Shown here: in pieces, positions 368 to 23,127 of the stretch
Layout: every line of letters begins with the position of its first letter
Numbering within the stretch: the first letter of the stretch is position 1
IMG/VR virus record: IMGVR_UViG_3300025617_000074
Coordinates: 1 to 30,340 of that record
DNA length: 30,340 bases
Reading direction: 5' to 3' (one strand)
Origin: a virus
Notes under the pieces: generated by a model
The model's database searches: none
Told to the model about the DNA's origin: nothing
The model's input: the letters and a program-made list of their open reading frames with translations, nothing else
Translations under genes and position numbers: made by a program

Positions 368-689
368 ATTGTTTTAATTTCCAGTGCGTACCCGATTCGG
401 CAACTATCATAACGTTGTCTACATGTGCGGTTGTGCCGCTATCGCTAGGAACAAGTTTCCTATACAAACCCACAATATTGAGATTAATTATTTTTCCGTT
501 TTCAACTTGACAATGATAATTGCTTATATCGTATGTTTTTTTGTCAATAACAATGTATGTACCTGGTTCGTTGGTGCTTGTGTAAAATAATGGGCTGCCT
601 GTTTCAGGATCATAATAAAGTCTATATTCGAGATCAACAGGTTTTTGCGGCTCTAAACTGTTTAGTGCTTCAAAGAACGCATCACTCAT
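357..689 (-). CDS. Conserved small protein of unknown function (110 aa)
   Basis: The protein is soluble-looking and beta-rich, with no signal peptide or membrane segment. Visible features are a tyrosine-rich start (EYRLYYDPETGSPLFYT, about residues 21-37), a GTYIVIDKKTY strand pair, and a C-terminal GTTAHVDNVMIVAESGTHWK segment. I recognise no catalytic motif. The ATG at 689 overlaps the end of the preceding glycosyltransferase-like gene by 8 bases, and an AGGG lies about 9 bases upstream. Its own end overlaps the next glycosyltransferase-like gene. Because it sits between two such genes in an overlapping cassette, it may be an accessory to them, but that is inference from position only. Confidence 0.75.
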   Translation of the reverse strand: MSDAFFEALNSLEPQKPVDLEYRLYYDPETGSPLFYTSTNEPGTYIVIDKKTYDISNYHCQVENGKIINLNIVGLYRKLVPSDSGTTAHVDNVMIVAESGTHWKLKQYEN

Positions 690-1464
690 AACATTGCCCT
701 AGATCTCTTGCAAGGTCCTTAACGTGGTAGTGCAATAGCCCACTTTGACTAAACCCATTGAGTCTGACTTGTCCACTAATGATTTCCCACACTAACTGCT
801 TGCTCCAATCTTCAGCTGTTAACCCATTGATAGCAGGTTTCATGTGTGTAATCTGTGGACCGTTCATACTAATAAATTGTTCTTCGCCCATAAAAGCGAT
901 AGCAAGTGCATAGGCCAAGTCTGTGTTTACTGGCTCGCATTTACCGTATACTAAACTATTTTGCACACTTGACCAATTATTCATTAAACTTTTTACAGTA
1001 GTGAAAAAGTTCTTTGCCAGTGGGCTTACTCGCCAATAGGTAACTGCATTGTACACATCGGGTAATTGATTAGCATCGAAAATTTTTCTATATCGTCTAC
1101 TAGTTGCAGCATCGTCTTTGAAGTTTTTACAACCTGTACTTACCCAAACATCATAATGCCTAAACAGTGTCCACCAATGTTCAAACGGACCAGTTACTAT
1201 CATGTCTGCTTCTAGTTTAACTGTTTCGTGAAACGGACTGTGATTGTATACTTGATAATCGTTTAGATATCCGCCTAGATCTTCTGCTACACGAACATAA
1301 TCAAACAGCGAGTCTTCTATGGCTTCGTTGGTAAGCAAGCATATTTTAACATCAGGATGCTGATAACGCAAACTTTTTGCAAGTGTTCTAGCACACTCTA
1401 CATAGTCAGTGTCTGCTGTATTAAATGCAGGAATAATATATCCGCGATCGTCACTGTAACTCAA
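682..1464 (-). CDS. Small glycosyltransferase-like protein (260 aa), TTG start
   Basis: The N-terminus (RGYIIPAFNTADTDYVECAR, then LAKSLRYQHPDVKICLLTNE) resembles the start of a GT-A Rossmann-like domain: a first strand, then an ARxLAxSL helix, then a second strand. Residues 82-90 (VKLEADMIV) fall where the DxD motif is expected but read E85-A86-D87, so the first aspartate is replaced by glutamate. The C-terminal half has a KPVNTDLAYALA-like helix (CEPVNTDLAYALAIAF) and a late histidine pair (LLHYHVKD). The start codon is TTG. It is supported by GGAGA at 1471-1475 with a 6-base spacer and by a 14-base overlap with the upstream paralogue. It looks like a divergent paralogue of the 249-aa neighbour. 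Activity and sugar donor cannot be told from sequence. Confidence 0.75.
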   Translation of the reverse strand: MSYSDDRGYIIPAFNTADTDYVECARTLAKSLRYQHPDVKICLLTNEAIEDSLFDYVRVAEDLGGYLNDYQVYNHSPFHETVKLEADMIVTGPFEHWWTLFRHYDVWVSTGCKNFKDDAATSRRYRKIFDANQLPDVYNAVTYWRVSPLAKNFFTTVKSLMNNWSSVQNSLVYGKCEPVNTDLAYALAIAFMGEEQFISMNGPQITHMKPAINGLTAEDWSKQLVWEIISGQVRLNGFSQSGLLHYHVKDLARDLGQCYE

Positions 1465-2200
1465 GAAGTTTCTCCAGATTGCGTTTGCCCATAATATGTA
1501 GGTCTTGGTGTTGTACCGTTATGCGTTTAGGTTTTAGTTCTTCATTTTCAAACACTGTATAACCTATTGTCCACTGTTCGTCTAGTTCTATGTCGCAACT
1601 GTCAGGGACATTTATCAGAGTCCACGGAATACATTCTGTAGGCATGGTTCCGCCATTCACTAGAAGTAGTGCCAGACTCAATGCATAGTCGTTACGAAAA
1701 GGTTTCTTTTGAAAATGAAATAAGTTTGCATAATGATTGTAATTGTCTTGTATCATGCGCCAAGCATCAAACACATCATGTGTGTATTGACTGCGATCAA
1801 AAACACAAACAGTTGCCCACCACATTGGCGTGTTTAGCATGCCAAATGTTTCTGTTTTAGGTTGTGCTTCATTAACGTACATTCTAGTGTTGTGTGCAAG
1901 AAAACTTGCATCACTATATAATGCTGTTTTTAATACATCACTGCTGATCCAATAGTCTGCATCTAATAACAAAGTACGATCATAGGGTGTATCCATTAAT
2001 GCATTACAGCGTCCGCTGTTGCGCCACTCTACTGGAGCGTCACAATCAGCCCACGCTCTCTTACCAGTAACAGTACTGTTGCCTTCAACAATAGTAGTAG
2101 GTATATCCAGATAATGCTTTACACGTTTAGCACATTCTCGAGCAATACGAGTGTATTCTATATCGCCATCTGTTGCGTATATAAGTGCGCCAACTGTCAT
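1451..2200 (-). CDS. Small glycosyltransferase-like protein (249 aa)
   Basis: The protein opens with GALIYATDGDIEYTRIAREC, a strand-then-helix start like that of nucleotide-sugar transferases. Residues 73-84 (YDRTLLLDADYW) carry a textbook GT-A DxD at D80 and D82, the usual metal and nucleotide-sugar binding pair. A tryptophan-rich segment, NTPMWWATVCVFDRS, follows at about residues 123-137. NDYALSLALLL (about 170-180) matches the NTDLAYALAI helix of the next gene, so the two are probably paralogues. No membrane segment is visible, so it is likely a cytoplasmic enzyme. The ATG at 2200 overlaps the upstream TGA by 4 bases (ATGA), a typical coupling arrangement. Inferred role: glycan or virion-protein modification. 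Confidence 0.78.
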   Translation of the reverse strand: MTVGALIYATDGDIEYTRIARECAKRVKHYLDIPTTIVEGNSTVTGKRAWADCDAPVEWRNSGRCNALMDTPYDRTLLLDADYWISSDVLKTALYSDASFLAHNTRMYVNEAQPKTETFGMLNTPMWWATVCVFDRSQYTHDVFDAWRMIQDNYNHYANLFHFQKKPFRNDYALSLALLLVNGGTMPTECIPWTLINVPDSCDIELDEQWTIGYTVFENEELKPKRITVQHQDLHIMGKRNLEKLLELQ

Positions 2201-5669: not shown

Positions 5670-8600
5670 TTATATTTCGCCTCGAATAAACCTTGCAGCT
5701 TGTGTTGTTTGTTCTTGTAATGCAACACCATTACTAGCTGAACTAGTTCCTTGTGCATACATCACAGTACTCTTAACAATACTAATTTCAACTTCGACAC
5801 CGGTTGCTGGAGCATCTATTAGTGTAACTTCTACAAAAGGATCAACCTGTGTTACGGTATATGCACTGTCAGCGAGCTCAGTGCCGCCAACTTTAACACG
5901 GACTGCTTCTTCAATTTCTGTACTATCGATACCTGCACCGATTGTTACGTTTGTAGCTCCAAACAATCTAGTGGTGCCGTCTCCTATCAACGTGTTACTG
6001 TAAACAGTTTTCTGGTAACTTCCAGGAAGTATTTCGCCTATGCTGGTATTTGTAATTGTTGCTCCAGCAAGATGTTCAGCAATACCTGTTCCGAGCACTC
6101 CTCTTCTTAATCCACTCAAAGTATTATTATTGGTGTTTCTTGTTCTGTAAAGAATTCTTTCACCATCAATGATTACTGAACCAAAAATGTTTGCTTCAGG
6201 ATTTGGCTGGCTTAATTTTGACACGTCTCTGACATGAATAACGTCGTCAGTGATGCTTAAACTCTGCATCAGTTCAGTGGTATTGTTGTTGTTAATTCTA
6301 GAAATTTTCTGATTGCCAAGCATATCTTGGAAAATTCTAAAGTTAAGCGGAACCGGTACAACCTGTTGTGTATAACTGGTTATTACTACAACATCACTAG
6401 GTCCTAAAACACTTCCGCCTAATGTTACAACTGTTCCCGAAACTGTAAAATCAATACCCGAAAGTAGTCGTCTGCCGTTTTTGTGTACTTCCAAACGTTC
6501 GCTAGCGGTAATTTCTTTACCGATATCAAGGTTGTTTGTAAAGACTACTTCGCCAATTTCATAAGAGAATGATCCTGGTGCACCTGTTGTATCCCCCGCA
6601 TCAAATCCAATGATATCAAATCCTTCACTTTCAGTTAAGTCTTCGGATGTTGGACCTTGGAATACTTGTGTAAGTAGATCTTGCTCACTGGTGTCACCAT
6701 AAGTTGCACAGGTGATTACAGTACCTGGTGGTGGTGTTGTTTTAAGTGTTATTGTACTGTCATGTATTGTGTAGTCCGCACTAGTTGTAACTGCCACAAT
6801 AATGTTAGCGCCAGCAGCTGGTGCTGTAGTAAACTCAATATAACGATCACTCGACCCGTCCCACTCACTAACAGAGTAATCAACTGCCAGTGTTTGTAAC
6901 TCATCATCGACATAAACTCTGATTTCGTTATCAGCAACAAACCCTTGGTTTGTTGCTCCACGATTTGGCAAATAATATGGGCCAGCACTACTTCCGTCGC
7001 CGGTGTGTTCTCTGCTCTCTGGTGGACGCAATCTAAATCCATTACGCAATACCAACATGTTAATTGGGTTAGTGCCTTGTAGAGGAACTGTTAGATCAAA
7101 TTCAGGTGTTCCAGACACATAAACATTGTATTGCCCAATAGGTGTGCTCCATGAGGTTTGCGGAGTAGTAATACCCATTACTGCTACAGTAACAAGATCG
7201 CTACTGTTATATGTGTTGTCAAATGTGATAGTTGTATTGTAATCCCCATTGGCAGCATATGTGTAATCAGTAACTATTAAACCGTTAACTTTGATCAAGA
7301 ATTCATAAATCTCGTTGTACGCAACCGGAACTGTTAGACTGTTTCCTACTAAGTCGCCAGTGTAGTCGTTAACAAACAACTGATTACCGCCGCCGATTCC
7401 GAATACTCTGATACCAAGTACATCGCCGATACTTGCTCCGCTGTTTACAGTTAAACGCTTGTTTGGCCAATCCACTGTAAAGTTGTTTACTGCGTCAAGT
7501 GTTTGTCCTATTGTTTCGTTCTCCACGCTCAATGATGCTGGATACAATATTAGATCCCCAAACTCGACCGTGATTCCACTAGCAGTATACTCAAAGTTTT
7601 TAGCACGAACTGCAAACCCGTGTCCGTCACCTGTCCAGTCTGCACCTGGACGAGTGTAAACTTTCAAGTCTAATGTGTCGAAGCTACTTCCCGGTACAAG
7701 CTCTTCTGGAGCATGGCTACTGTAAGTGTCAATAAACCCGCCGCCTTCGACATTAATATCTGTACTTCTTAGTCCTAGTAGACTATCAGTAAACGAACTC
7801 TCGTAAATCGAATCTAGAATGTCTGGGCTGTAAGTGGGTGATCCTTCAGGACCAAAATCCAAGTTATCAAATGGAGTAATATCAAAATTACCAATGTCGT
7901 AACCCGTGTTTTGATTGAATGGTACGCCTTGTACTTGTACACCAGGGTAATCAATACCTGCAATTAAAAGTGCAAGTTCTCTGCCAGGATCTTGAGAATC
8001 TGGATCATACAAGCCAATCGTACGATCAGCACCACTAAGTGTGCTTTGATCTACTTCTGTATAAAGATTTGGATCAAATATGTCTCCGCTTAACAATTCA
8101 GCACTATCAGGTACATCGTTAACACTATACACCTTGTCAAGATATCTTACTAAGCTACCTTCTTCGTATTTTGTATTAGGCTCCCAGTCCTGTACGCTAG
8201 AAGTATATTCGCATCTATCAAATTTAATAGTTGTATCAAAACTTCTAATCATGGTGTTAGTCATTACAGGTACTGCAATTACACCGCTACCGTTGCCTCC
8301 TGAGATAGTAACAGTAGGTGTAGTTAGATATCCTTCTCCGGATGTTAGCACATCAATAGCAATAACTTCTCCGGCAGTATTAATTCTAGCAACTGCGGTT
8401 GCAGGAACTGTGGCTTCTCCTTGTATTGTTACCTGAGGAGGAACAGTGTAATTGGATCCACTGTTGATAACAGTAATGCTAGCCAAACTTAATTTATAAT
8501 TGTCGTACCATTGGCTCCAAGGAAGTGTTTGCCAAATCGGATCTGTACTAGGGGTATGACTTTCTAGTGCAGTGGTTACTGTGTTATAATCAGTTTCGTC

Positions 8601-11600
8601 TAACACAGGACTGATAAACTTGTTGTATGTACTATCGTAATAAGCAGGAACATCAAAGTCTGTTAGTGTGCCCAAGAAACTGTCTTGTCCTTCGTAACGG
8701 AGATTAAACTCTTTGATCTTAACGTGATAAGGTTTAACTTCGTTGATATATTCTTGAACAAAGTCCTGGTTATCTCTGCGATAAATTTGGAATGGTTCCA
8801 AATCTCGGATTTTATGACTAACATCAATAAGACTGGTTTTAATCAACCATTCAGGCGCTACCTGTTCAGTAAGAATATATTCAAATACAAGAATCAATAA
8901 CTCGTTACGATATATTAACATTTCGCTGGTGAAAATTTCTTCGTTTAGAGCACGAAGAATTTGTCTTGTTTCGGTGATTGGATTTTGGTCCCAACGCTGA
9001 CTATCAAAAACTTCAAGATCAAAACCAAATCTGCCGCTAGAATAATTCCAAACCAAACTGCTAATTTCAACAGTGCTGTTTTCAGCAACAACACGAGTCC
9101 ACTCGCCGCCTAAGTATTGATAAATTTCAAATTTACCAAAGCTGTTAGCCGTTACTTTAGCACTGTCGCCTTCATTAATATTTGTTAATGTTTGTAAATC
9201 ATTAAATGTTACAACTTCAGCTACTGGACGAATGCTGTTATTATACCCAGGTAACACCCAATCAACATAATCCCAATACTGTTTTGTATCATAGTTTTGT
9301 ACTCTAGTTAACAGCAAGCTCTTGTCATTTTGCACTGTGTAAATTGTCCACAGACCGTTCTGTGTTTCATCGCTAGCGATTAAGTATCTGTATCCTGTAG
9401 ATACCAATGCAAGATTTTGATACGTGAGCTCAGCATAGGTAGCCAATCTCTTATCCCACTCACCGCTTGCACTAGTAGGCTCAGGTTCTTCGCTGTTTAA
9501 CAAGTCAAAACGTTTGCTTTCAGCAATTGGGTACAAGCTCAATATAGTATTGGCTCGTGTTAGATAGTTTTCTAACGCAAGGAATCTATCCTCAAACAGG
9601 CTCTGTCTTGGACGGAATTGCACACCGTATTTGTCCGCAGGACTAAGATTAACATCAGGAACACTATTACCTAGTGTGTCTGCACCTGCAAAACTATCTA
9701 ACAACTTACGGTACAATCCTTCGCCTAAGAAACTGTCTGCTTTTCCGTCGCCGACAAGATCATATTCAACGTGGACATTATCATTGTTGCGTATTTTGTC
9801 AAACTCAATGTGTAAAATAGTATCGTTTGCGTCAAGCAAATCACGACAGTTGTAAAGTGCTACTGTGTTCGTTGCAATAGGGGCAATGTAAGGGATACCG
9901 CTACTGCGTGGATTTTCAATATATTGAGCAACTGCTGACGCACTAAGAGTTTTAGATTTGTCTGTTGCTACACTATTAATACCCTTAACCCAGAAATAGT
10001 ATTTGCTAGAGAATAGCCCGTCTGGATTCAACACGCTACCGATTACATAGCTATTTGTGTTGAATACTGTTCCTTCGCCGGCATAATTAGCTGGTGGAAC
10101 ATCGCTTTCGATCCATTGATATACATCTACGCTACTACCTGGAAATAATTGTCCCCAGCGACGTGATCTGTAAGCAAGATTATCTTGGTGATAATCAATA
10201 AATCTAACTGTGCTAGTATTCCACCAAATTTCTCCTACTCTATCAGCACCCCAGAATTGCCCAACATTGTTAGTTGTACCAACATTGTACTGTGCTGGGT
10301 CGATACCTGTGATATAATCTATGTTTTGTCTTGCACTGCCTAAAATCTTTCCTTGTAGAGGATCGATGTAATCTAAGTATCTTGTGATTCCGCCGGCAAT
10401 TCTATTATAGGTAAACACACTGTTAAACAACTGTACATCTACTACATCAGTTTGTACATAACGCTGTTGCCATGCTGATTCTTTGTCCGGGTTGTTATAC
10501 TGTATAACTCTGCCATAATCACCAACGCTGTCGCCAAGATCGTCTTGCGGAGAACCAACTAACAAAACACCATCTTTAAAACTCACTGACGTTCCAAACT
10601 GATCTAGTCTACGCTGTCCATCATCGTACAACTGCTGTCCGAATACAAATTTAGCAGGATTACTTGCACTGCTGTTTGCACTTAGCAAGAAATCATATGT
10701 GTAAACTACACCCGAACGTTCGAGTATATCTACATATTCAGTTGATCCACTGTCAAATAGTGTGGTATTGTTATCAAAAGTTGCTGGTTTAGCTGCAGCA
10801 CTGTCAGGTGCACCAATAACCAATGTGTCAGCGTTAACGTCAATTGATATACTGCTACCAAAATGTCCATAATCAACTTCAAGAGGAGGTCTTATGGTTT
10901 GTGCAAAACTATAAGGGTCAAACCCTAAATCAGTCCATGCTTCGCCTAATCCTGGTAATACTAATAACTTGATAAACTGATCGGCTGCACTAGCATCAGA
11001 CAGTGTTAGCAATAGACGGTCTGAACTATTACTTGCAACTACATTAGGAATGTTTGCTGTATTAATATCATTAACATAAAGATCCAGCCAACTGCTAGCC
11101 TGCCAATAATCTGTATCTGATATCGATGTTGTTACAGGAACTGCCTGAATGCTCAAATAAATGTCGTCATCATTTATAACAAATGTGCCACTATCCCATG
11201 CAATTGCACTTGTCCATGTGCTCGGTGTGCTAACTAAAACATCATAATTGTTAATACGAATACTACTACCAGGAGTAAGACCAGGATCTGTTACTGTACT
11301 AGTGATGTTTCCATAAAGTCTTGCTTGGTTCGTCCATCTATCAACACTTCCGCTTTCTGGTGCATTGGTACTATCGTTTGGCATACCAATGTAGACACTA
11401 CAGTTTGTGCCACATTGCGCTACAGAACTACCATATTTGCCAAGTGTTTGATTGTTTGCACTTTGCATGGTTTGCATTAATTCAAATGTATTTGTTTCAA
11501 TTTCCAGTATATCACCAACTGCAAGACTTACACTAGATGCAATAGTAATTGTAGATCCAGCAACAGTAAATTCACCATTGTTAACATAACCGTCGTTTCT

Positions 11601-14600
11601 GATTAAGAATGTATTGTTTAATTTAACAGTAACAGGACCATTTGGTGTTCTCGCAACAGTGTAAGTTCTATCTGTAGCGTCTGTAATTTGAAATCTTTCC
11701 ACACTACGGTCGATAACTTGTACTGTTCCAGCGAAGTCTAATGCACCTGGGTCGTCATTTGGTGATCCAATAATAACCTGTCTGCCATCTGTTGTAGTAT
11801 CAATTGTATGCCCGAATCTTGGATTTGTACTGCTGTCGCCTGTTTCGCCGGCATAAGTTAGTGTGTCTACTAACTGCCAATGTGTACTACTAGAAATAAC
11901 AACTGTTCCGGTTACACCAGCCAAAAACGTTACAACTTTAGTAGATGGATTAAATGTATAATCTAAATACGGACGCTGTATAACATCATTAACAATTGCA
12001 CTAAAGCTATAAATGTCAACTGCTGTATACAAATCTTCTACACTAAATTCTGTAGTACTAGTTGCAGGTAGATATGTTTTACTTTGACTTCTTGTAATTG
12101 TTATTTCGTCGCCAATGTTAGGTGCTGTGGTAAATGCAACTTCCCCAGAGCTGTAAACCCAATCAGTTCCAGCAATTTTAGGCAGGTTGTTTACTAGAAC
12201 ACCTATTTGTTGGCTCCCTACACCCGCTTGGCTACTGTCATCGTCGATGATAATAGTCGAACTAATATCAAAGTTTGTAGTATCACCGTCGCCAACAAAA
12301 TTCAAACTCTGACTTTGCACTTCTACTTTGTTATAAGCATAAACACTATCGTCACCGGGTGCACCAACGTACATCCAACGCTCGTCTGAGCTAATTGCTA
12401 CGCTATATCCAAACTCACTGCCAGTGTCAGTTGCTGATTCTACAAGACATTGTGTATTTCTGTAGCTTCCGTTTTCTGGATTTCTGCGTATAACATAAGC
12501 ATATCCTCGGTTGCTTAAACTATCCGGTGCACCTGTTACAGCATATTCTGTATCCCCGGCATCCAAACTTGTTCCGTATCCTATAAGTCCAGTAGTAGTT
12601 GGTGCAAGAATACCAGTTTCAACATAAGTGGTTGGACCAGCTTTGTTATATGTAAACACTCCGCCAACTAAACTATTGTATCCTGGAGATCCTACTAATC
12701 CGCCTTGCTTGTTAAGGCCTTGTGCAATACTCGATCCAAATACAGTATTAATGTCTTCTGTACCAGGTGTTAGGTCAACACTGGTCGAGAACGGATCTGT
12801 TTTTTCGTAAGCAGCCCAGTGCCCAGTTCCGTCATTATCTACCCATGCACGGCTACCTGTAACAAGTTGATTAGAAAAACTCAGCGTTGAGATATCACTG
12901 GCTTGGTTGACACGAATGCTTTCTAAATATAAACCTATCCCTGTTCCGGTAATGTTGGTTGTCGAATCAGGCAAGCTCAGATCAACTACTACTGTTTTTA
13001 TACTCGGAACAACAGCAATTTCGTATGCACCATCGACATCAGCATCAAAATATTTTACAATTAACTTGTCGCCGGCGGATAAACCATGTTGTCCGTTAAA
13101 CGTAATTGTACAAGTGCCATTTAAATTGTCGCTTACTTGAGCAATTGATGCAGGAACTAAATTAGTTCTATACACATTCCAGTCATATTTGTTACTCTTA
13201 GCAACCCAAATATTACTTCCTAGATTAACTTCTTCTAGGTTGTTTACAATTTCAGACAAATCGTTGAAATCAAATACTTTAATATCAACATCATCATAGT
13301 TTACATATCCAGCACTTGGAAGTATTCTGTCTGGTTGACCTAATGTGTAAGTAGGTAGTATACTACTACTGTTAATAAAATAACTTTGCTTCCAAATATC
13401 ACTTATCTGAATAACCTGATCAGCATTGCTGGTTTCACCAGGTGCAACAACTGCTACTGTACTTGGATTAGAGAACAAGTCTTCTTCAAACAGTCTACTT
13501 TCAAAGTAAACTCTGCTAGCATTGGCACCATAGGTTGCTCGTTGAATAGCCCAGTTTTCTGTAATTTCGTATTCAGCAACTTCTTTGTTTAAGTTTGCAA
13601 GACTAAAAATTTCTGCACTCTGAAGTGTACCTTTTGTGCCTAAGAACTGCTTGTACAAGTTAACCTGAGAAATGTCGTCAAGGTTAAGATTTTGCATATA
13701 CTGTCTTGGACGGAAACCGATCAAACCAAATCCTAATAGGTCGGCATCTCTTTCAAGGTTAGCACTATTAGTATCGTAATAGTTACGAATCAAATCTGCT
13801 TTGGTTGCAATGTTAGGTAATAACCCTTTAGTGATCTTATTATAGTCGCTCTTGATCCACACACTGAAATCAAATGTTTCGCTCGGTGGAATAATTTCAG
13901 CAGCACTCCAGTACGAATTTTTGTAAAGTACAATTTCGCCTTTACTGTATGAACGATTAGCTGCCCATTCTTGTACGTTATCCTGATTAAGAATAAACCC
14001 TTGTGCATCCAGTGTACCGTTCCAGTCATATGTGGTATACCCGTTAACAAGAAGTCTACTTTGTCTAGCACCTGTTCCTGGATCGTAAATCAAATCATTG
14101 AAAATACTGGTATTATCTAACACAATTATGTGTTCGTATGCTGTAAATCTTGCATTTATCAAATTAAATGTGTTATTGTTAAAACTTCTTAGTGTGAGAG
14201 TATTCTCGATACGTTCCACAACATAGTCATCTGTTCCCAATGGCTTTTTATTTTGATTTAATAATACGTTGTCTAAACCAGGTGCAAGTAAACTTTCAGC
14301 AACTGCATTTGGCTTTGTAATCTTGATCAAATCAGCACCAGGGTTTAGATTAATCATACTACCTACAGCCCAGCTACTTTGTGCCCAATACACAAATTCT
14401 TGTGCCATCTGGTTCCAGTTCATTATCAAATTATTTTCGATATTTTCGAAACTCATACCTTGTTCAGATAAGAACTTGCCATAACTAACCAAAAAGTCTA
14501 CCACACTACTTTCAGTAGTAAACGTGTATCCATACGGAATTCTTACTACACTATCACGGAAGTTTTCAGGAATTCTGTAACTGTCGCTTCCTACTGTAAA

Positions 14601-17600
14601 ATTGCTAAACTTTCCAGTTGGAATGCTTGGGAATATTTCAAAGTAAGGATTAACTGTGCTATAACCATAGATAGTATAACCGTTGTTTGTTTTTTGTACC
14701 ATAACACTGCTGTATGTTAATTCGCTAAACGCAGGGTTTTTATAAAGTAATAACTGGTAACTTTCATCAGGTAGCAACAAACTACTGTTTAAACTATTTG
14801 GGCTAGATTTTTCTGTAAAGATTTTTAAGTAACCTTTGTCACTAAACGAAGCCATTCTGTACGCCAAACGCACATCGATATTTTCCAATCTTTCTTCAAG
14901 CAACGTGGTGCTGTCTAATCCAACAATACGATTATAATCTACTATCCAGTTAATGTAACTATTTTTTGCTACACCATTACCGTAGATAGTCAGCTCAGCT
15001 GGATCAAGTCTAAAACGATTGTTTAACAGGAACTGCTCAAATGTTGTGTTATAATTGTATGCATCTCTATCAGCAAACAAACTAAAATACTTGGCCGGTT
15101 GAGTAAGTGCCATTAGTCTTTGTAGTGCAAAAACATAACTGCTACTTCTTCTCCAAGCAGTTTCAACTGGGCCGCCGTCGCCAAACACCCAACTCTTGCG
15201 GAAACTGTTACTGTTATATTCGCCAACAATAACGTCAAATGGGCTGCGTAGATTTCCTTCACTGTCTGATGGGATAATATCTAACAATTGAGGTCTAGCA
15301 AATTCACTTACAATTCTAGTGTTGTCTGGATCAGCAATACGCCCGTCTCTCAGATCTTCCCATAGAACCAAGTTACCACTGGTGTACGGAGCAGGACCGT
15401 ACTGATCTTCCCACCAGTCTGGGCGTTCAGTTAACCCAATCATTTCCCATGGGCGAGTATGTGGTGTATCTGTATCGTACAACTGTTCGTAGATAGCTCG
15501 CCAGTTTCCTAAAAGAAGAGAACCGTCTAATTTATTACTGCTTCTGCTGTAGTTCCATGTAAACTGATTGTTTGCATCATATGTTTGCGCTTGGTAGGGC
15601 AATTTGTTAGTTCCAACCCATGTTAAGAAACTTTCAGCAAGTATTTCGTTTATTTCTGCTAATGTATAATCTGTAGTTCTAAATTGTCCAGGAACTACAT
15701 CTTGCAGATTAATCGGAGGATTATACTGGTCATCAACTTTCAAGTTGTTGTAAACACGTTTTTCAAATTCTAAAAGTACGTCGTCTCGGATATCACCAAA
15801 TGCAATTGTAAGACTACCGTCATGACCTAGAATAACCTGAGTTGGTGTTAGGTATGTATTGTCAACGTAAGTCTGAGGTCTAAATGCTTTAAACAATCCT
15901 AAACTAGTAGGACTTGCTGGAACATAACTTCCGTATGTTGCAGTGTATTCTCTTATCTTCAGCACATCGCCAACGTTTAATGTAACAGTGTCGGTGTTAA
16001 TCGTAATACGAGGACCATCAGTTGCAACAGTGTATTCGTGTCCGTCTGCTAGCAATATTTCGTCGTTTAGATAAACTAGTATACCGTTGTAGTTGGCACT
16101 ATTAAAATTGTAACTGTATAAAGTATCAAACGTCGTTGTACTAATAGGTGTAACAGTATAAACAGTTTCTTCGTATGTTTCGCCACTTGGCAACATATCG
16201 GTCCAATAGAATGGACTGTTTTCGTTTTTGCCAAGATTGATATTTTTCAGTGTTTGATCTAAGATTTCGTTTGTTGTATAACCGTCCCAGTCATTTTTAG
16301 CAATATAATCTAAGATTAAATTTTTAAATTTTTCGTATTCAGCACTTGCAAAATCTATTGCATTAAAATAATCAAATCTACTGTCATTCAGGAAAGTTCC
16401 CAACAGTGTCATTGGCGAACTTTGTTGTAATATAGTTCTACCATATGGAACAACGTTGCCGAGGTCTCTGATATTATTAGCACCATTGATGTATCCGCTG
16501 AAGTTTTCTACATTTTGACAAATTGTGTTATAATGATTACGAATTGTACCTAGTGTTAGTTCTGCTGTAGTTTTATTAATTGGATTGTTTTCTAGGTTAC
16601 TAGGAACAGTGTAATAAGCAACTTGGCTTGCTGTGTCACTGATAACTGTTACTTCAATTAGTGCACCTGTTTCGGGTGCATTTACAAATGAAATTTGAGT
16701 AACCCCTTCACTGTTTGTTGTGTAGGTATAGTTGCTAGGCAACAAAAATACGCCATCAACAAACATTTTAACTGGAATGTCGTTGCTATTGGTAATAACT
16801 TCAACGTCAAGAATTAAGTCATCTCCGGTATATTCAAAACTAAAGCTCTGTCTTGAAACTGTTTGATTACTACTGGTTTGCCATCCTATCAGTTCAGCAT
16901 AATTGGTTCTATTAGAATATTGTCTAACATATCCCGTTTCAATATTTTGAGTAACACTAGCAGTGTTTTGTACCCAAGTAAAAGTATCTGTATAAATGTT
17001 GTTTTCAAATACAATATCGCCTACGTTAGCAATAGTTAAATATTTTAAAGGTTGTCCAATAACACTATCTTCAACGCCAGTGCCTACTGCATAGCTGAAT
17101 AACTTGCTACCAACAAAATCTGTACCTGGGTACGATTCAGTATCGCCAAAGCTATTACCGTTGATATCAAGTATGTCGAACAACGGTGCTTGATTAATAG
17201 AAGTTTTTTCTTGTGCTAACAACCAATTGGTACCGTTGTAGTAATAGGTTTTTCCTTGGCTAGTAACACCACTGGTTACTACCACAGTTTCGTTTAGACT
17301 TGCACCAGGGCTGTTAATATCTGCCGGTTGTAAATCGATAACAGTATCTGAACTGTCGTTGAACTCAACAAAATTTACAACATATACTTTATTTCGAACT
17401 GTTGCATCAGTGTCATTGGCAAAGATAACTCTAGTGCCTTCTGCAAAACTATACCCATCAACGCTATAACCAATGGTACCATTGATATTCGATAGAGCAT
17501 CTGTTTCTCTAAAATCAATGATATCAATCGGTGCAATTGCTTGAGTTCCAGAATTATAAAGTTTAATTCCGGCCTTGAATTCAAGTATAGGACGGTTTGC

Positions 17601-19286
17601 ACGTTGTTCGTTATCAATTACTGCGACAGTATTATTATAAGCCGCTGTAGCGTTAATAACATCAATGTGGAACCATCTGTTACTGCGAGACCAAGCATTT
17701 AAATCTGCACTAGCTCGGTTGATTGTTAGATAATCTTTCTGAGTAGGTGCGTTTAATGTATCATCAAACCCGCCAATATCATAACCAACACTATCATAAG
17801 GAACAGTTGAGCTTTGCGTATACCCTTCTGGTGTGATTAATTCTTCAACTGCGACCAGTTTAATCTGTGTTCCGACTCCTTCTACATAATATTCGTTACC
17901 ACTGTAACTAGAAGGATTTGTTTCGCCTTCGAATTGAACTTTTAATCCATTAGTGAACACCACTCCATTTGGACTAGTGTATGTGCTAGAACTTAAAATT
18001 TCATCAATATCAAGAATTTGATCGCCACTTTGATCTACTAACTTGATCACTCCAAAGAAGTTTGGATTATTTGCATCTTGGTAATATAATAAGTCCAAGT
18101 TTGCTGTGATAAGAGGAACCTTTTCATAATAACCTTCGCTGGTTTTCCAAAACTGTGTTCCAGCATATTGCGTTCCGTAGTTAACAAAAAGTTTACTAAG
18201 ATTAGCCACAGATCTATTACTTACAAGACGTATAAATGGATTATCAGAATCATCATACACATACTGTATTTGCCATACACTGTACTTTTGACTATCAAGT
18301 GTTAGAATTGTAGTTTGATCAAATGTTGTTTCATCGTACCCAGCAGTTTCACTATCAAACTGCGTAGTAGACAACCAGCCGCCATCTTCTCCAGGGATAG
18401 TGTTTGTAAAAATAATTGTACGTCCTTCGAGGTCATTAATGCCGTCAATGCCGCCATGTGTTGATAAAAATTCGTTAACATAGATATTGTTAATCTGATT
18501 AAATTGTAAATTGGTTACAAGATCTACTTTACCAGCATCGGTTAACTCAAAGAAAAAGTTTTGTGCGCTTTTATCTGGAACATTAAAAGTAATTGTTCCG
18601 TTGTCATCGCCGTTATTAATAACACCCAACACTTCACGTGAACTTTGACTGTTTTGCGATAATGTGCCATCTGCACCCGGTACACTTTGTATCCAAAATG
18701 GATTACCAGTTTGGTTTAATTCAAATGTATAACTACCTTCTCGTACAAGAGTAATTGTAGGTAGTGTACCGACTTGATCACTAAACGTATAACCTTCTGC
18801 GCCTCGAGTAACTGTAAAATCATCAGTAAGGGGAATATCCGTGCTACTAACATCCACGCTATCCGGTCCAGCAGGTAACCAATAATATTGACCAAAGTTT
18901 ACAAACTTATCAAAATCAACAAATGGATCCCAACTATAAAATTCGCTACTGAATAGTCTATCATGTTTTTCTACATTAGCACCTTTAAGGCGGAGTCTGT
19001 CAATATATCCAGGATATGTTAATACATCTGTAATGTTATTGGTATTGTTTTCTAGAAAAACAAGTCCAGGCTCAAGTTGATAGTTGCTACGCTCATCACT
19101 GGGTTCAATAACATAGTTGTCGTTAGGATTGACGCCTGGACCTACACGTCGACCAATGTAACCTTGCGTGGCCTTAAGTTTTGGTTCTTGTACTAATTGG
19201 TCTAGCGTACTACCTAAAAACTGCTTGTTGGTTTCAGTTCTGAAAATTTCAGGTAGAAAATCAATGGTTCTTATTCTGTTAGCCAA
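5670..19286 (-). CDS. Giant multidomain baseplate/tail structural protein (4538 aa)
   Basis: One uninterrupted frame begins at a TTG that directly follows the gp6-like stop. GGAG at 19295-19298 (8-base spacer) and the absence of an early in-frame ATG support this start. Order of parts: conserved N-terminus with FLPEIFRTETNKQFLGSTLD (9-28); cupredoxin-like stretch (about 178-256); long baseplate-type region; chitin-binding-like segment at W1774; seven FG-GAP-like blades (2183-2930); an EYINEVKPYHVKIKEF segment near 3510; a G-Y-PP-VTI repeat pair (3603-3673); second chitin-binding-like segment at W3701; a YPGVQV...HAPEELVPG region (3775-3866); tandem fibre beta-modules (about 3996-4503); and an IDGERILYRTRN motif near 4371. 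T4 has gp7 and gp8 in this position, but I see no clear gp7 similarity. Probably a peripheral wedge or long host-contact appendage. Confidence 0.85.
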   Translation of the reverse strand: MANRIRTIDFLPEIFRTETNKQFLGSTLDQLVQEPKLKATQGYIGRRVGPGVNPNDNYVIEPSDERSNYQLEPGLVFLENNTNNITDVLTYPGYIDRLRLKGANVEKHDRLFSSEFYSWDPFVDFDKFVNFGQYYWLPAGPDSVDVSSTDIPLTDDFTVTRGAEGYTFSDQVGTLPTITLVREGSYTFELNQTGNPFWIQSVPGADGTLSQNSQSSREVLGVINNGDDNGTITFNVPDKSAQNFFFELTDAGKVDLVTNLQFNQINNIYVNEFLSTHGGIDGINDLEGRTIIFTNTIPGEDGGWLSTTQFDSETAGYDETTFDQTTILTLDSQKYSVWQIQYVYDDSDNPFIRLVSNRSVANLSKLFVNYGTQYAGTQFWKTSEGYYEKVPLITANLDLLYYQDANNPNFFGVIKLVDQSGDQILDIDEILSSSTYTSPNGVVFTNGLKVQFEGETNPSSYSGNEYYVEGVGTQIKLVAVEELITPEGYTQSSTVPYDSVGYDIGGFDDTLNAPTQKDYLTINRASADLNAWSRSNRWFHIDVINATAAYNNTVAVIDNEQRANRPILEFKAGIKLYNSGTQAIAPIDIIDFRETDALSNINGTIGYSVDGYSFAEGTRVIFANDTDATVRNKVYVVNFVEFNDSSDTVIDLQPADINSPGASLNETVVVTSGVTSQGKTYYYNGTNWLLAQEKTSINQAPLFDILDINGNSFGDTESYPGTDFVGSKLFSYAVGTGVEDSVIGQPLKYLTIANVGDIVFENNIYTDTFTWVQNTASVTQNIETGYVRQYSNRTNYAELIGWQTSSNQTVSRQSFSFEYTGDDLILDVEVITNSNDIPVKMFVDGVFLLPSNYTYTTNSEGVTQISFVNAPETGALIEVTVISDTASQVAYYTVPSNLENNPINKTTAELTLGTIRNHYNTICQNVENFSGYINGANNIRDLGNVVPYGRTILQQSSPMTLLGTFLNDSRFDYFNAIDFASAEYEKFKNLILDYIAKNDWDGYTTNEILDQTLKNINLGKNENSPFYWTDMLPSGETYEETVYTVTPISTTTFDTLYSYNFNSANYNGILVYLNDEILLADGHEYTVATDGPRITINTDTVTLNVGDVLKIREYTATYGSYVPASPTSLGLFKAFRPQTYVDNTYLTPTQVILGHDGSLTIAFGDIRDDVLLEFEKRVYNNLKVDDQYNPPINLQDVVPGQFRTTDYTLAEINEILAESFLTWVGTNKLPYQAQTYDANNQFTWNYSRSSNKLDGSLLLGNWRAIYEQLYDTDTPHTRPWEMIGLTERPDWWEDQYGPAPYTSGNLVLWEDLRDGRIADPDNTRIVSEFARPQLLDIIPSDSEGNLRSPFDVIVGEYNSNSFRKSWVFGDGGPVETAWRRSSSYVFALQRLMALTQPAKYFSLFADRDAYNYNTTFEQFLLNNRFRLDPAELTIYGNGVAKNSYINWIVDYNRIVGLDSTTLLEERLENIDVRLAYRMASFSDKGYLKIFTEKSSPNSLNSSLLLPDESYQLLLYKNPAFSELTYSSVMVQKTNNGYTIYGYSTVNPYFEIFPSIPTGKFSNFTVGSDSYRIPENFRDSVVRIPYGYTFTTESSVVDFLVSYGKFLSEQGMSFENIENNLIMNWNQMAQEFVYWAQSSWAVGSMINLNPGADLIKITKPNAVAESLLAPGLDNVLLNQNKKPLGTDDYVVERIENTLTLRSFNNNTFNLINARFTAYEHIIVLDNTSIFNDLIYDPGTGARQSRLLVNGYTTYDWNGTLDAQGFILNQDNVQEWAANRSYSKGEIVLYKNSYWSAAEIIPPSETFDFSVWIKSDYNKITKGLLPNIATKADLIRNYYDTNSANLERDADLLGFGLIGFRPRQYMQNLNLDDISQVNLYKQFLGTKGTLQSAEIFSLANLNKEVAEYEITENWAIQRATYGANASRVYFESRLFEEDLFSNPSTVAVVAPGETSNADQVIQISDIWKQSYFINSSSILPTYTLGQPDRILPSAGYVNYDDVDIKVFDFNDLSEIVNNLEEVNLGSNIWVAKSNKYDWNVYRTNLVPASIAQVSDNLNGTCTITFNGQHGLSAGDKLIVKYFDADVDGAYEIAVVPSIKTVVVDLSLPDSTTNITGTGIGLYLESIRVNQASDISTLSFSNQLVTGSRAWVDNDGTGHWAAYEKTDPFSTSVDLTPGTEDINTVFGSSIAQGLNKQGGLVGSPGYNSLVGGVFTYNKAGPTTYVETGILAPTTTGLIGYGTSLDAGDTEYAVTGAPDSLSNRGYAYVIRRNPENGSYRNTQCLVESATDTGSEFGYSVAISSDERWMYVGAPGDDSVYAYNKVEVQSQSLNFVGDGDTTNFDISSTIIIDDDSSQAGVGSQQIGVLVNNLPKIAGTDWVYSSGEVAFTTAPNIGDEITITRSQSKTYLPATSTTEFSVEDLYTAVDIYSFSAIVNDVIQRPYLDYTFNPSTKVVTFLAGVTGTVVISSSTHWQLVDTLTYAGETGDSSTNPRFGHTIDTTTDGRQVIIGSPNDDPGALDFAGTVQVIDRSVERFQITDATDRTYTVARTPNGPVTVKLNNTFLIRNDGYVNNGEFTVAGSTITIASSVSLAVGDILEIETNTFELMQTMQSANNQTLGKYGSSVAQCGTNCSVYIGMPNDSTNAPESGSVDRWTNQARLYGNITSTVTDPGLTPGSSIRINNYDVLVSTPSTWTSAIAWDSGTFVINDDDIYLSIQAVPVTTSISDTDYWQASSWLDLYVNDINTANIPNVVASNSSDRLLLTLSDASAADQFIKLLVLPGLGEAWTDLGFDPYSFAQTIRPPLEVDYGHFGSSISIDVNADTLVIGAPDSAAAKPATFDNNTTLFDSGSTEYVDILERSGVVYTYDFLLSANSSASNPAKFVFGQQLYDDGQRRLDQFGTSVSFKDGVLLVGSPQDDLGDSVGDYGRVIQYNNPDKESAWQQRYVQTDVVDVQLFNSVFTYNRIAGGITRYLDYIDPLQGKILGSARQNIDYITGIDPAQYNVGTTNNVGQFWGADRVGEIWWNTSTVRFIDYHQDNLAYRSRRWGQLFPGSSVDVYQWIESDVPPANYAGEGTVFNTNSYVIGSVLNPDGLFSSKYYFWVKGINSVATDKSKTLSASAVAQYIENPRSSGIPYIAPIATNTVALYNCRDLLDANDTILHIEFDKIRNNDNVHVEYDLVGDGKADSFLGEGLYRKLLDSFAGADTLGNSVPDVNLSPADKYGVQFRPRQSLFEDRFLALENYLTRANTILSLYPIAESKRFDLLNSEEPEPTSASGEWDKRLATYAELTYQNLALVSTGYRYLIASDETQNGLWTIYTVQNDKSLLLTRVQNYDTKQYWDYVDWVLPGYNNSIRPVAEVVTFNDLQTLTNINEGDSAKVTANSFGKFEIYQYLGGEWTRVVAENSTVEISSLVWNYSSGRFGFDLEVFDSQRWDQNPITETRQILRALNEEIFTSEMLIYRNELLILVFEYILTEQVAPEWLIKTSLIDVSHKIRDLEPFQIYRRDNQDFVQEYINEVKPYHVKIKEFNLRYEGQDSFLGTLTDFDVPAYYDSTYNKFISPVLDETDYNTVTTALESHTPSTDPIWQTLPWSQWYDNYKLSLASITVINSGSNYTVPPQVTIQGEATVPATAVARINTAGEVIAIDVLTSGEGYLTTPTVTISGGNGSGVIAVPVMTNTMIRSFDTTIKFDRCEYTSSVQDWEPNTKYEEGSLVRYLDKVYSVNDVPDSAELLSGDIFDPNLYTEVDQSTLSGADRTIGLYDPDSQDPGRELALLIAGIDYPGVQVQGVPFNQNTGYDIGNFDITPFDNLDFGPEGSPTYSPDILDSIYESSFTDSLLGLRSTDINVEGGGFIDTYSSHAPEELVPGSSFDTLDLKVYTRPGADWTGDGHGFAVRAKNFEYTASGITVEFGDLILYPASLSVENETIGQTLDAVNNFTVDWPNKRLTVNSGASIGDVLGIRVFGIGGGNQLFVNDYTGDLVGNSLTVPVAYNEIYEFLIKVNGLIVTDYTYAANGDYNTTITFDNTYNSSDLVTVAVMGITTPQTSWSTPIGQYNVYVSGTPEFDLTVPLQGTNPINMLVLRNGFRLRPPESREHTGDGSSAGPYYLPNRGATNQGFVADNEIRVYVDDELQTLAVDYSVSEWDGSSDRYIEFTTAPAAGANIIVAVTTSADYTIHDSTITLKTTPPPGTVITCATYGDTSEQDLLTQVFQGPTSEDLTESEGFDIIGFDAGDTTGAPGSFSYEIGEVVFTNNLDIGKEITASERLEVHKNGRRLLSGIDFTVSGTVVTLGGSVLGPSDVVVITSYTQQVVPVPLNFRIFQDMLGNQKISRINNNNTTELMQSLSITDDVIHVRDVSKLSQPNPEANIFGSVIIDGERILYRTRNTNNNTLSGLRRGVLGTGIAEHLAGATITNTSIGEILPGSYQKTVYSNTLIGDGTTRLFGATNVTIGAGIDSTEIEEAVRVKVGGTELADSAYTVTQVDPFVEVTLIDAPATGVEVEISIVKSTVMYAQGTSSASNGVALQEQTTQAARFIRGEI
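10500..12755 (-). repeat. Seven FG-GAP-like (integrin-type propeller) repeats in the giant protein
   Basis: Seven segments share an aromatic-G-x-S/T start and a following V-G-(A/S)-P strand. The aromatic residue starts at F2183, Y2237, F2292, F2491, Y2618, F2809 and F2897. Clear copies are EFGYSVAISSDERWMYVGAP, RFGHTIDTTTDGRQVIIGSP and QFGTSVSFKDGVLLVGSPQD. Seven is the blade number of the integrin alpha propeller. The calcium loop DxDxDG usual in FG-GAP blades is not seen. Insertions of about 90-170 residues after blades 3, 4 and 5 carry fibre beta-modules and a chitin-binding-like segment. Confidence 0.7.
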
Positions 19287-22200
19287 TTATTGTACTCCAC
19301 TGTTGGTTGCTGTTCTTAATGCACTGCTTGTAAGTGCATCAACTACTTCGATGTCATTTACATTTGCAGCGTTTACAAAAATCTCATCTGGTTCGCTTCG
19401 TACTTCATACAAATCGCCAAAACTCTTGAGAGGGTCGTTTGGTACTAGCACCACGCTACTAATAATGTCGCCTAGTTGATCATGTAAATAAGCACTAAGC
19501 TCACTAAAGTAAAAAGTATCGCCAAAGTCCCAAACATCAATAGTAAAATATTCGTTCATCGCAGCAATAGTTCTGCTCTTAATTTCACTAACACTTGCTG
19601 TGCTACTGCTATTTTTAATTACTTTAATAGTTGCTCTTAGGTCAGGATCTGCTTTGCTACCGAATAGTGGCTTGAATCTTACACTATTCAAAATAACATT
19701 GTCGCTGATCATTTTGTATTGGTTAATGCTTTCATAATCACTGCTCAATTCGTCGATAGTAGGACGACTTGGTTCTGCAACAGATCCAGTGCTATCTTTA
19801 ATATAGTTCTGATATGCGGTATAATATGCATTTGTAACCAAATAAATGTCAATGATGTTACTAGTACCCGGATCAATTCTTCTGCTTAACGGACTGTTGT
19901 GTCTATATTGGAAGTATAGATCTTGTCTTCCGGTAAACACTGCATAATCAGTGACAGAAGATATTGTTCTTACCCCAGTGGCTGAAACTGCTAGTTGATA
20001 GAATGCATTATCGCTGGTTGCATAAAATACTTGTCCAGCCGGGTACTCGCTTTTTGCAAGTTCAATTGCATTCAGTGTAGCTAAATTAGAGACCACTGTT
20101 CCACTTGTCAATGGAATATATCTTTCTAGATTGTCAAAATCAGTCTGACGTTGTAGGAATACCAATTTATTATTTGGATTTGTGTCCGGTGACACTATGT
20201 TTTCAAAATAATCCGGGTCGTCAGGTATACCATCATTGTCAAGATCACCATAGCTAATTCTTACACGGAAGTCATCAACAAACCCATCGCTTTCTGCAGG
20301 TTGTCCAATAATATCCAATTGATTATCTGTGTTCATCGGGCTACTACTATCGGGCTGACTATTGGTTTTTAATACATTAATAAAGTCATTGATTACTGTT
20401 CCTGTTTTAGGATCATAAACCTGCTGACTACCATCGTAAAAGAAACGGGTTTGTAATATGCTACCAAAGAATCGTTGTAGGCTTCTGCTGGTAACAGTGT
20501 ATGTTTGGCCGTCGGTTTCGAACTTAACTAACCAACTGTTGTCCAATCCTGCACCACTGGCATCTTGAGCAAATGCAAAACTAAATGTTGTTGCTGGGTT
20601 AAGATTAGAATTTGAAATCAAGTACCAAGTTCTTGTGTCATTATCAAAGCCTAACCCAAAGTCTCTGTATAGTTCTACTTGCTCAGTGATGCTTTGTTCA
20701 AATGTACTAGGCAAATCTGTAACAAAAACTGGTATAACTTGCGTAGGCACAGCACCAGTTGGGATATAGTTGTTAATTGTAACCGGACCGCTTCCGTCAG
20801 TGAAATTACCGTTACCAAAGTTTGTACCGTCGAGGTACGAGTCAACAACAGTTGCCCATAAAACAGTTTTTTCTTCTGGTAGTGTAGCTGTGCCCAGTTG
20901 TAATCTATTGTTTCTGTCAAAATAGTAACCAGTTGGCGGAACAAACTTAACTAGTGCATTTTCAATAATGTATTGCTTGTTATCGCTAGTGGTTGCACCG
21001 ATCGGTGCCGGTTCTTGACTGCCTACAAATCTAAAGTAACCTGTAGTTTCGTTGTTTAAACTGGTACTTTGCACCCAATCAAGATTAAGTGCTGTAAGAC
21101 TTGGCCTTGTAAAGTTGTTAAAATAAAACTCCTGCATTCCTCTTTCAGAAATAGCAGGCTCAAGTTGATTTCGAACAACATTATCAATATCATTAGTATC
21201 AACAAATGTAAAAGTAAAACTTGGAGTTAGATTTTGTTCATAAATTAAACCATCGCTAGAAAAAATATTTGTGCTAGAATATTTTCCAGTGATATCAAGG
21301 AAATCCAAGTAACGACTTGTTCCAATACTGCTACGATTTACAGCTTTTGACTTAATAACTGTGCCGAACAATGTGTAAGGAAGATTATTATAGTCTTCGC
21401 CATTCACCATACGGTTTTGCGTATAGTATCTTGCCGGAGCACGGCCTTTAATGTCAGCAATGTTTTCTCTGTTATTGGCATTACTAACTGGCTGACTCAA
21501 CTGACAAGTAAATGTAACAGTTTCGTTGCGTCCTGTTCTACTCACATAGGTAAAACTCAAGCTGATGTTTTGCATGTCCTGTGGATTAATAATATAACGC
21601 AATCCATTACTGGCACGAACATAACTGCGGAAGTTGCCCACAGGGATTTCGCTGAATACACCATCGCCAAAGTTTAAATTAATTTGATCGTTTGCTCTAC
21701 TGCTTACACTGAATAGTTGTCTTTCGTTAGGACCAAGTTGATTAGTGGCACCAGCATAGATGTTGTCTACTTTGGTCCATTCCTGGCTTACATTATTATT
21801 TTCATCTAACTTGTACAACCAAACATCTTCGTTGTTTACGCCTTCGATGTTAACATTCACAACACGGTTGCTGATACGCTCTGCAAGTGTAAAGTTCTGA
21901 GCTTGCAAACTTCCTTGTTTGAAGAAGAAGAAAAATCCTGTGTTAGGGCTAGCATAACCTTGACGGTCATTTCTGTACAACATGTTAAACACGCCATTTG
22001 GCTGTGGTGCCGGTTCGTAAACAAATTCGGCATCTTCGGTGGTAGCACTTACTGCTTCAAACACCATGTTGGTGTTGTTTACTGTGCTGTTAAAAGGTAC
22101 AACAGGAAGAATGCCTTGAATTAAGTTTAATGTGTATTCGTCGGTTTGTGTGCCAAGAATATTTTTTGTTGATCCAGGGCGTCCGAATCTTTGGCTATCT

Positions 22201-22694
22201 ACCATTGCAGCATTTACAATGGTTGTAAACTGTTCTAACCAATTTGTGTTTACTGTGTCATTCCAGTTTATCACAACATTGCTTAGGTTAATACCGTTGT
22301 AGTCTACAACATTTTCAGTTGTGCTAACACTGGTTACTTTTAAGAAACCCTTTGCTTCCTGATTACGCTTCGGAGTGTATCCAACAAGCTCGGCAAGACG
22401 TACAACACTGTCTCTTCTTTCAGCAGTGTCAAGGAAGTTTTCTCTGGTGTTTAAATCGTTACGGAAGCTGAGTGCTTGGCCCATAAACGCCATAACATCT
22501 AGCAGTGCAACAAATTCACTGCTTTCGATATAGTCGTTATAACTTTCTGGATAGTAAAGACGAATATAGTCTACAAAACTCTTTCTTAGAGTTTCAAAAT
22601 CGTAGCTCTGAAAGTCTGCTTCTCTATATGTTTGATAGATGCGTTTCCAGTCTTCTACACCAAAAATAGCGGTTTGTCTTGTTGTCTTTGCCAT
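19287..22694 (-). CDS. 6: Baseplate wedge protein, gp6-like (1135 aa)
   Basis: The N-terminal 110 residues carry the family signature: KSFVDYIRLYYPESYNDYIE, LLDVMAFMGQALSFRNDLNT and RENFLDTAERRDSVVRLAEL, ending LVGYTPKR. In T4, gp6 dimers join neighbouring wedges into the inner baseplate ring and trigger its opening. The C-terminal part (SRTIAAMNEYFTIDVWDFGD, then a SELSAYLHDQLGDII helix) resembles the gp6/Baseplate-J C-terminal domain. The protein is much longer than T4 gp6 (660 aa); the extra length lies in the middle and includes a DLDNDGIPDDPD loop near residue 816. The ATG at 22694 has AAGG with a 5-base spacer, and a CATAAATA late-promoter motif lies upstream. Its TAA abuts the TTG start of the giant gene. 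Confidence 0.88.
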   Translation of the reverse strand: MAKTTRQTAIFGVEDWKRIYQTYREADFQSYDFETLRKSFVDYIRLYYPESYNDYIESSEFVALLDVMAFMGQALSFRNDLNTRENFLDTAERRDSVVRLAELVGYTPKRNQEAKGFLKVTSVSTTENVVDYNGINLSNVVINWNDTVNTNWLEQFTTIVNAAMVDSQRFGRPGSTKNILGTQTDEYTLNLIQGILPVVPFNSTVNNTNMVFEAVSATTEDAEFVYEPAPQPNGVFNMLYRNDRQGYASPNTGFFFFFKQGSLQAQNFTLAERISNRVVNVNIEGVNNEDVWLYKLDENNNVSQEWTKVDNIYAGATNQLGPNERQLFSVSSRANDQINLNFGDGVFSEIPVGNFRSYVRASNGLRYIINPQDMQNISLSFTYVSRTGRNETVTFTCQLSQPVSNANNRENIADIKGRAPARYYTQNRMVNGEDYNNLPYTLFGTVIKSKAVNRSSIGTSRYLDFLDITGKYSSTNIFSSDGLIYEQNLTPSFTFTFVDTNDIDNVVRNQLEPAISERGMQEFYFNNFTRPSLTALNLDWVQSTSLNNETTGYFRFVGSQEPAPIGATTSDNKQYIIENALVKFVPPTGYYFDRNNRLQLGTATLPEEKTVLWATVVDSYLDGTNFGNGNFTDGSGPVTINNYIPTGAVPTQVIPVFVTDLPSTFEQSITEQVELYRDFGLGFDNDTRTWYLISNSNLNPATTFSFAFAQDASGAGLDNSWLVKFETDGQTYTVTSRSLQRFFGSILQTRFFYDGSQQVYDPKTGTVINDFINVLKTNSQPDSSSPMNTDNQLDIIGQPAESDGFVDDFRVRISYGDLDNDGIPDDPDYFENIVSPDTNPNNKLVFLQRQTDFDNLERYIPLTSGTVVSNLATLNAIELAKSEYPAGQVFYATSDNAFYQLAVSATGVRTISSVTDYAVFTGRQDLYFQYRHNSPLSRRIDPGTSNIIDIYLVTNAYYTAYQNYIKDSTGSVAEPSRPTIDELSSDYESINQYKMISDNVILNSVRFKPLFGSKADPDLRATIKVIKNSSSTASVSEIKSRTIAAMNEYFTIDVWDFGDTFYFSELSAYLHDQLGDIISSVVLVPNDPLKSFGDLYEVRSEPDEIFVNAANVNDIEVVDALTSSALRTATNSGVQ

Positions 22695-22740: not shown

Positions 22741-23115
22741 TTATACATAGGTAGCGAATTGTGCTTCTTGATCAAATAATACAATAAGATCTTGTACACC
22801 AGTGCCATTAACAGTTTCTACTTGTAGTTCAACAAGTACACCGTTTTCTTTGCTGTACACTGCGAGACTGCTTGCTTGTATTCTAGGATCTTTGCCTACT
22901 ACTCGCTGTATTTCTGTTTCGATAGCACGAATTGTTTCTGGGCTTTGTGGCTCAAAGATATAATCCCAAACATTAGTACCGTTGAGAGGACGCATAGGTG
23001 ATTCGCCTTGACGAATGTTCAATGCATTTAATAAGTCTCTTTTGATCAAATCAAAATCAGTAAGAGTGTAATTCTTATACTGGTTGATTGAATTGTATCC
23101 TATAAATGTTGCCAT
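22741..23115 (-). CDS. 25: Baseplate wedge protein, gp25-like (124 aa)
   Basis: The length matches T4 gp25 (132 aa). Shared features are an N-terminal helix that enters the wedge core (DLIKRDLLNALNIRQGESPM), a P-x-GT-VWDYIFEP strand (about 43-55), the SPETIRAIETEIQRVV helix (about 58-73) and DPRI (about 76-79), which corresponds to the EPRI motif of gp25 and type VI TssE proteins. A final strand pair, VLVELQVETVN, follows. In T4, gp25 with gp6 and gp53 forms the wedge core that nucleates sheath assembly. The ATG at 23115 is preceded directly by TATAAATAC and has no visible Shine-Dalgarno. The spike gene stops 7 bases upstream. Confidence 0.88.
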   Translation of the reverse strand: MATFIGYNSINQYKNYTLTDFDLIKRDLLNALNIRQGESPMRPLNGTNVWDYIFEPQSPETIRAIETEIQRVVGKDPRIQASSLAVYSKENGVLVELQVETVNGTGVQDLIVLFDQEAQFATYV

Positions 23116-23119
23116 AACG

Positions 23120-23127
23120 TATTTATA
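23120..23127 (-). promoter_or_regulatory. Late-promoter motif TATAAATA just before gene 25
   Basis: This is an exact T4 late-promoter core on the minus strand. It overlaps the stop codon of the spike gene and ends 4 bases before the ATG of gene 25. Initiation at the usual distance would fall at or near the ATG, giving a leaderless message, which fits the missing Shine-Dalgarno. It could instead be a chance match. Confidence 0.5.

Follow-up and report, generated by a model that had tools for sequence, protein, structure and literature searches.

A predicted seven-bladed FG-GAP propeller of integrin alpha fold within a giant phage baseplate protein

What would a ring of integrin-like repeats do within a phage baseplate? 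The question is raised by a virus record 30,340 bases long (henceforth the window, meaning the whole stretch of DNA analysed), in which a single, intact open reading frame on the minus strand encodes the 4538-residue protein that holds the repeats. A preliminary description had placed this protein in the baseplate and proposed that its repeats form a receptor- or glycan-binding propeller head. The baseplate setting is borne out by the neighbouring genes, and the locus is laid out as follows:

5670..19286, minus strand: giant baseplate protein, 4538 residues, preceded by gp5-like, gp25 and gp6-like genes, in the position of T4 gp7
19287-22694: gp6-like gene, matching a baseplate family
22741-23115: gp25 gene, matching a baseplate family
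23123-25537: gp5-like hub gene, matching a baseplate family
28580-28882: gp53-like wedge subunit gene, matching a baseplate family
13107..15989, minus strand: N-side flank (residues 1100-2060), conserved and common to cultured jumbo phages
12912..13154, minus strand: small beta domain ahead of the ring (residues about 2045-2125), from the model and alignment
8607..10514, minus strand: C-side flank (residues 2925-3560), conserved, overlapping the end of blade 7

A Pfam scan of the whole giant protein returned only FG-GAP_2, CBM_5_12 and a sub-threshold fn3_3. Two CBM_5_12-like chitin-binding stretches lie away from the repeats, at residues 3701-3721 (window 8124-8186) and about 1773-1800 (window about 13887-13970), and residues 3598-3696 (window 8199-8495) resemble phage hub/lysozyme and head-closure modules (phrog_1922 and phrog_460). 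The N-side flank was modelled too poorly by AlphaFold2 (pLDDT 56.6) to assess structural likeness to T4 gp7, and the Foldseek list for this model held nothing with E below 0.001. The record of the PA5oct homologue of the giant carries an ESI-MS/MS mark from virion proteomics. Elsewhere in the window (682-2200), two genes appear glycosyltransferase-like by eye: the first (682-1464) matches phrog_1903, a family without known function, and nothing in Pfam, and the second (1451-2200) has no match in Pfam or PHROG.

Seven FG-GAP repeats and their predicted fold

A motif pattern search of the giant protein retrieved exactly seven FG...GAP copies (residues 2183-2897), in the number and at the residue and nucleotide coordinates first described:

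Residue 2183: motif 1, FGSSIAQGLNKQGGLVGSP
Residue 2237: motif 2, YGTSLDAGDTEYAVTGAP
Residue 2292: motif 3, FGYSVAISSDERWMYVGAP
Residue 2491: motif 4, FGHTIDTTTDGRQVIIGSP
Residue 2618: motif 5, YGSSVAQCGTNCSVYIGMP
Residue 2809: motif 6, FGSSISIDVNADTLVIGAP
Residue 2897: motif 7, FGTSVSFKDGVLLVGSP

Shuffled versions of the protein (n=2000) contained 0.0025 motifs on average and one at most. That the repeats arose by chance, or are an assembly artefact of one contig, has a negligible probability and is refuted by these shuffles, by the many independent assemblies with the same architecture and by the single, intact reading frame. The Pfam family FG-GAP_2 (PF14312) matches the whole giant at 35.6 bits, against a curated cut-off of 23, and the propeller segment alone at 51 bits; at E 0.01, it is the sole Pfam family in the window propeller. 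The repeats are of the bacterial FG-GAP_2 type.

We predicted the structure of residues 2030-2980 with AlphaFold2, using a 27-sequence alignment composed of the window and 26 relatives, and obtained a seven-bladed model with a pLDDT of 86.5 and a pTM of 0.84. Its best match with an in-house structural aligner was integrin alpha-M (Z 35.7, 2.8 A over 359 residues, model residues 135-914); integrin alpha matches reached Z 32-36, integrins made up 48 of the 50 matches listed, and integrin alpha chains were among the top Foldseek matches in the PDB. Independently of structure, a sequence profile of the equivalent region (the slot between the flanks) in distant relatives matched integrin alpha-4 at E 1.9e-10, with integrin alphas accounting for all 12 of the 12 matches listed. 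Both checks proposed in the preliminary description, a profile search and a structure prediction, point to the fold that it had suspected, and the outcome that it had named as refuting did not occur: residues 2165-2944 are predicted to form a seven-bladed FG-GAP beta-propeller with the integrin alpha fold but without calcium loops. The absence of such loops had also been remarked on, and indeed no blade of the window protein contains DxDxDG, nor is it conserved in relatives; a lone D-x-D-x-D-G, at model residue 52 in the domain before the ring, is not conserved. Since the calcium loops are absent, the propeller is not an integrin. The strand at 2167-2172 superposes in register on the integrin N-terminal strand by which that ring is closed, and on the model strand 2165-2172 probably closes the phage ring; the outermost strand of blade 7 may be either 2167-2172 or 2939-2944.

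Modules inserted within the blades

Mapping of the model strands onto the alignment of relatives gave the positions of the blades and inserts:

10455..12794 (-): whole seven-bladed propeller with inserts, 2165-2944, predicted by AlphaFold2 and by the match to integrins
12771..12794 (-): strand before blade 1, 2165-2172, from the model and integrin match
12606..12740 (-): blade 1, 2183-2227, from motif and strand mapping
12444..12581 (-): blade 2, 2236-2281, from motif and strand mapping
12324..12416 (-): blade 3 strands A-C, 2291-2321, with strand D at 11856-11882
11883..12323 (-): blade 3 C-D hairpin insert, 2322-2468, 147 residues, apparently two beta modules
11694..11819 (-): blade 4 strands A-C, 2490-2531, with strand D at 11466-11504
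11505..11693 (-): blade 4 C-D hairpin insert, 2532-2594, 63 residues, of near-constant length among relatives
11328..11438 (-): blade 5 strands A-C, 2617-2653, the A-B loop bearing a CxxxC pair, with strand D at 10893-10913
10914..11327 (-): blade 5 C-D hairpin insert, 2654-2791, 138 residues, from strand mapping
11082..11231 (-): chitin-binding-like segment, 2686-2735, part of the insert of blade 5; about half of the relatives have a gap here
10629..10865 (-): blade 6, 2808-2886, whose hairpin at 10713-10808 has the conserved motif TFDxxTTxFDxxST
10455..10601 (-): blade 7, 2896-2944, from motif and strand mapping

The A-B loops are almost fixed in length across all aligned relatives, and the C-D hairpins span 76-240 residues in blade 3, 58-67 in blade 4 and 91-217 in blade 5. 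These long hairpins place the inserts within blades, at an equivalent place in three consecutive blades. Of the original claim that modules fill three gaps between blades, the modules are upheld and their inter-blade location is not. Because the same hairpin is extended in three consecutive blades, the extra modules would all extend from the same side of the ring. Two loci (L210 and L213) encode naturally compact rings without C-D inserts.

The segment described as chitin-binding-like gave no CBM_5_12 match in the window insert at E<=1; it is sub-threshold in some relatives and reaches E 0.0011 in L014, and CBM_5_12 is significant within 13 of 52 distant slots. In some relatives with slots of about 1100-1250 residues, such as L182 (4575-7922), a very large insertion follows an early blade and begins with a chitin-binding-like stretch. 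The CxxxC pair (window 11400-11414), kept in 25 of 27 sequences, occupies the type of loop that in integrins holds calcium, and may be a disulfide or a metal site. The blade 6 motif recurs in the majority of the distant relatives checked; it is absent from all seven cultured giants.

Many propellers are enzymes, several propeller folds being catalytic, and with carbohydrate-binding modules nearby the ring could be imagined as a baseplate enzyme, such as a glycan hydrolase or lyase clearing capsule. We consider this very improbable, as FG-GAP_2 has no companion among Pfam families in the propeller, the VIA list consists of integrin and WD40 chains, which are non-enzymes, and the acidic blade 6 hairpin is the sole candidate site seen.

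Inheritance of the ring and its slot in cultured phages

A scan of viral contigs seeded with the propeller region yielded 44 loci, and FG-GAP_2 is matched by every member of the aligned set (27/27). The C-side flank retrieved at least 586 relatives; among the best 80, the propeller occurs in 76 of the 76 that have both flanks. With the PA5oct flank as seed we obtained 59 distant relatives with slots of 442-1250 residues, FG-GAP_2 being found in 50 of the 52 distinct distant slots scanned. Scans seeded by the SCTP-2 and Vibrio flanks gave no matches. The relatives sit on contigs of up to 332 kb; the clade that bears the propeller is large and consists of uncultured phages, most of them very large. 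Within the clade the distances of ring and inserts track those of the flanks (r 0.91-0.93); the ring was therefore inherited, and a freely exchanged cassette is rejected for the window's clade. Mean identity is 0.43 for the ring and 0.37 for the inserts versus 0.55 for the flanks, so that both diverge faster than their surroundings.

In seven cultured jumbo phages whose flanks are homologous, the slot has 80 to about 1000 residues, and no FG-GAP blade was found there in any of the seven; the ring has therefore been added to the baseplate protein, which does not require it. Indeed, the slot measures merely 80-170 residues in Munch, CBB and Vibrio 2.275, which argues that the ring is dispensable. 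An impression of a LamG-like domain in the SCTP-2 slot was unconfirmed by Pfam or a PDB sequence search. Searching cultured phages with the propeller by tblastn returned none, bar weak matches to separate FG-GAP proteins of Sinorhizobium phage Phosso. This phage (L081 4339-24979, L082 4125-6533) has 42 FG-GAP_2 matches, mostly in two adjoining unannotated proteins of 3162 and 3692 residues, together with two small genes; apparently, these form multi-propeller arrays separate from the baseplate giant. Agrobacterium phage Atu_ph07 (L083 5019-6200) encodes a 393-residue FG-GAP_2 protein annotated as hemagglutinin, whose gene adjoins a MazG-like gene, likewise in Phosso.

The pattern of inheritance bears on a structural explanation, in which the propeller, as a rigid hub, grips adjacent wedge, fibre or hub proteins with its inserts and plays no part in host recognition. 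Vertical inheritance with the flanks speaks for such a hub, as do the ring's presence in every full-length close relative of that best-80 set, the near-constant length of the blade 4 insert and the signature blade 6 hairpin kept in most of the family. The inheritance, the blade 4 insert and the blade 6 hairpin also count against an adhesion head, since tail-fibre and receptor tips are often swapped, a blade 4 insert that hardly varies suits a structural part, and the conserved hairpin may mean a fixed contact within the virion; that the window's chitin-binding-like segment falls below Pfam detection counts against it as well. A hub is harder to reconcile with the short slots of Munch, CBB and Vibrio 2.275 and the bare rings of L210 and L213, from which it follows that a baseplate of this class can be built without the ring or the inserts, and with the CBM_5_12 modules in some slots. 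We regard it as possible, if rather doubtful.

A candidate host-contacting head and its known counterparts

We lean towards an ancient insertion that provides a host-contacting head on each wedge. An FG-GAP propeller would have been inserted long ago into the giant baseplate protein at the gp7 position; the ring would act as a platform, with modules on three consecutive blades jutting from one side. Most likely one head would be displayed per baseplate wedge and would contact host surface glycans or proteins, serving either in primary or secondary receptor binding or as an aid to baseplate triggering. For the window's clade, we infer that the head is present in the virion, in one copy per wedge, that it is exposed and that it binds a ligand. 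Our best guess at its role is receptor or glycan binding because the ring is an accessory, faster-changing platform of integrin type that bears modules, in some relatives carbohydrate-binding ones; such a role would fit a dispensable, faster-evolving insertion. More tentatively, an integrin-type propeller on every wedge may be the built-in adhesion head of a large uncultured clade of mostly very large phages. If so, phages and animals would have put one fold to parallel use in cell adhesion, the modules set into adjacent blades resembling the I domains set into integrins.

For very large phages known from metagenomes only, whose receptors are unknown, the propeller is a specific candidate for host contact that can be put to the test, and natural rings with and without inserts permit separate testing of the parts. 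FG-GAP proteins are already known from bacteria and viruses, and databases include some from uncultured phages; a literature search found no publication that connects FG-GAP with the baseplate of a phage, and in the wider FG-GAP and phage literature, judged by titles, none dealt with a phage baseplate. Here, an adhesion fold known from integrins is fixed within a baseplate protein.

Like T4 gp7, the wedge protein (5hx2, 5iv5), the giant is encoded directly after gp6 in the baseplate cluster, but it is 4.4 times longer, and no sequence or profile similarity was found, hhalign with single and family profiles giving probabilities under 1%. With the giant structural proteins of PA5oct, Phosso, Atu_ph07, Munch and CBB it shares homologous flanks on either side of the slot, whereas theirs lack the FG-GAP ring there, Phosso and Atu_ph07 encoding FG-GAP proteins separately. 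It resembles bacterial FG-GAP_2 propeller proteins in its above-cut-off family match, seen in the window and all aligned relatives, and in its calcium-free loops, and differs in being part of a baseplate protein of a phage, in having modules within its blades and in its signature hairpin in blade 6. In integrins, the I domain enters the ring on the upper face, between blades 2 and 3, whereas the phage inserts lie in the hairpins between strands 3 and 4 of blades 3, 4 and 5. The phage ring differs from the N-terminal beta-propeller of integrin alpha (alpha-M, alpha-4) in lacking DxDxDG calcium loops, yet shares with it seven FG-GAP blades, the same predicted fold, detectable sequence homology, an N-terminal strand that matches the ring-closing one in register, and a ring that holds extra inserted domains.
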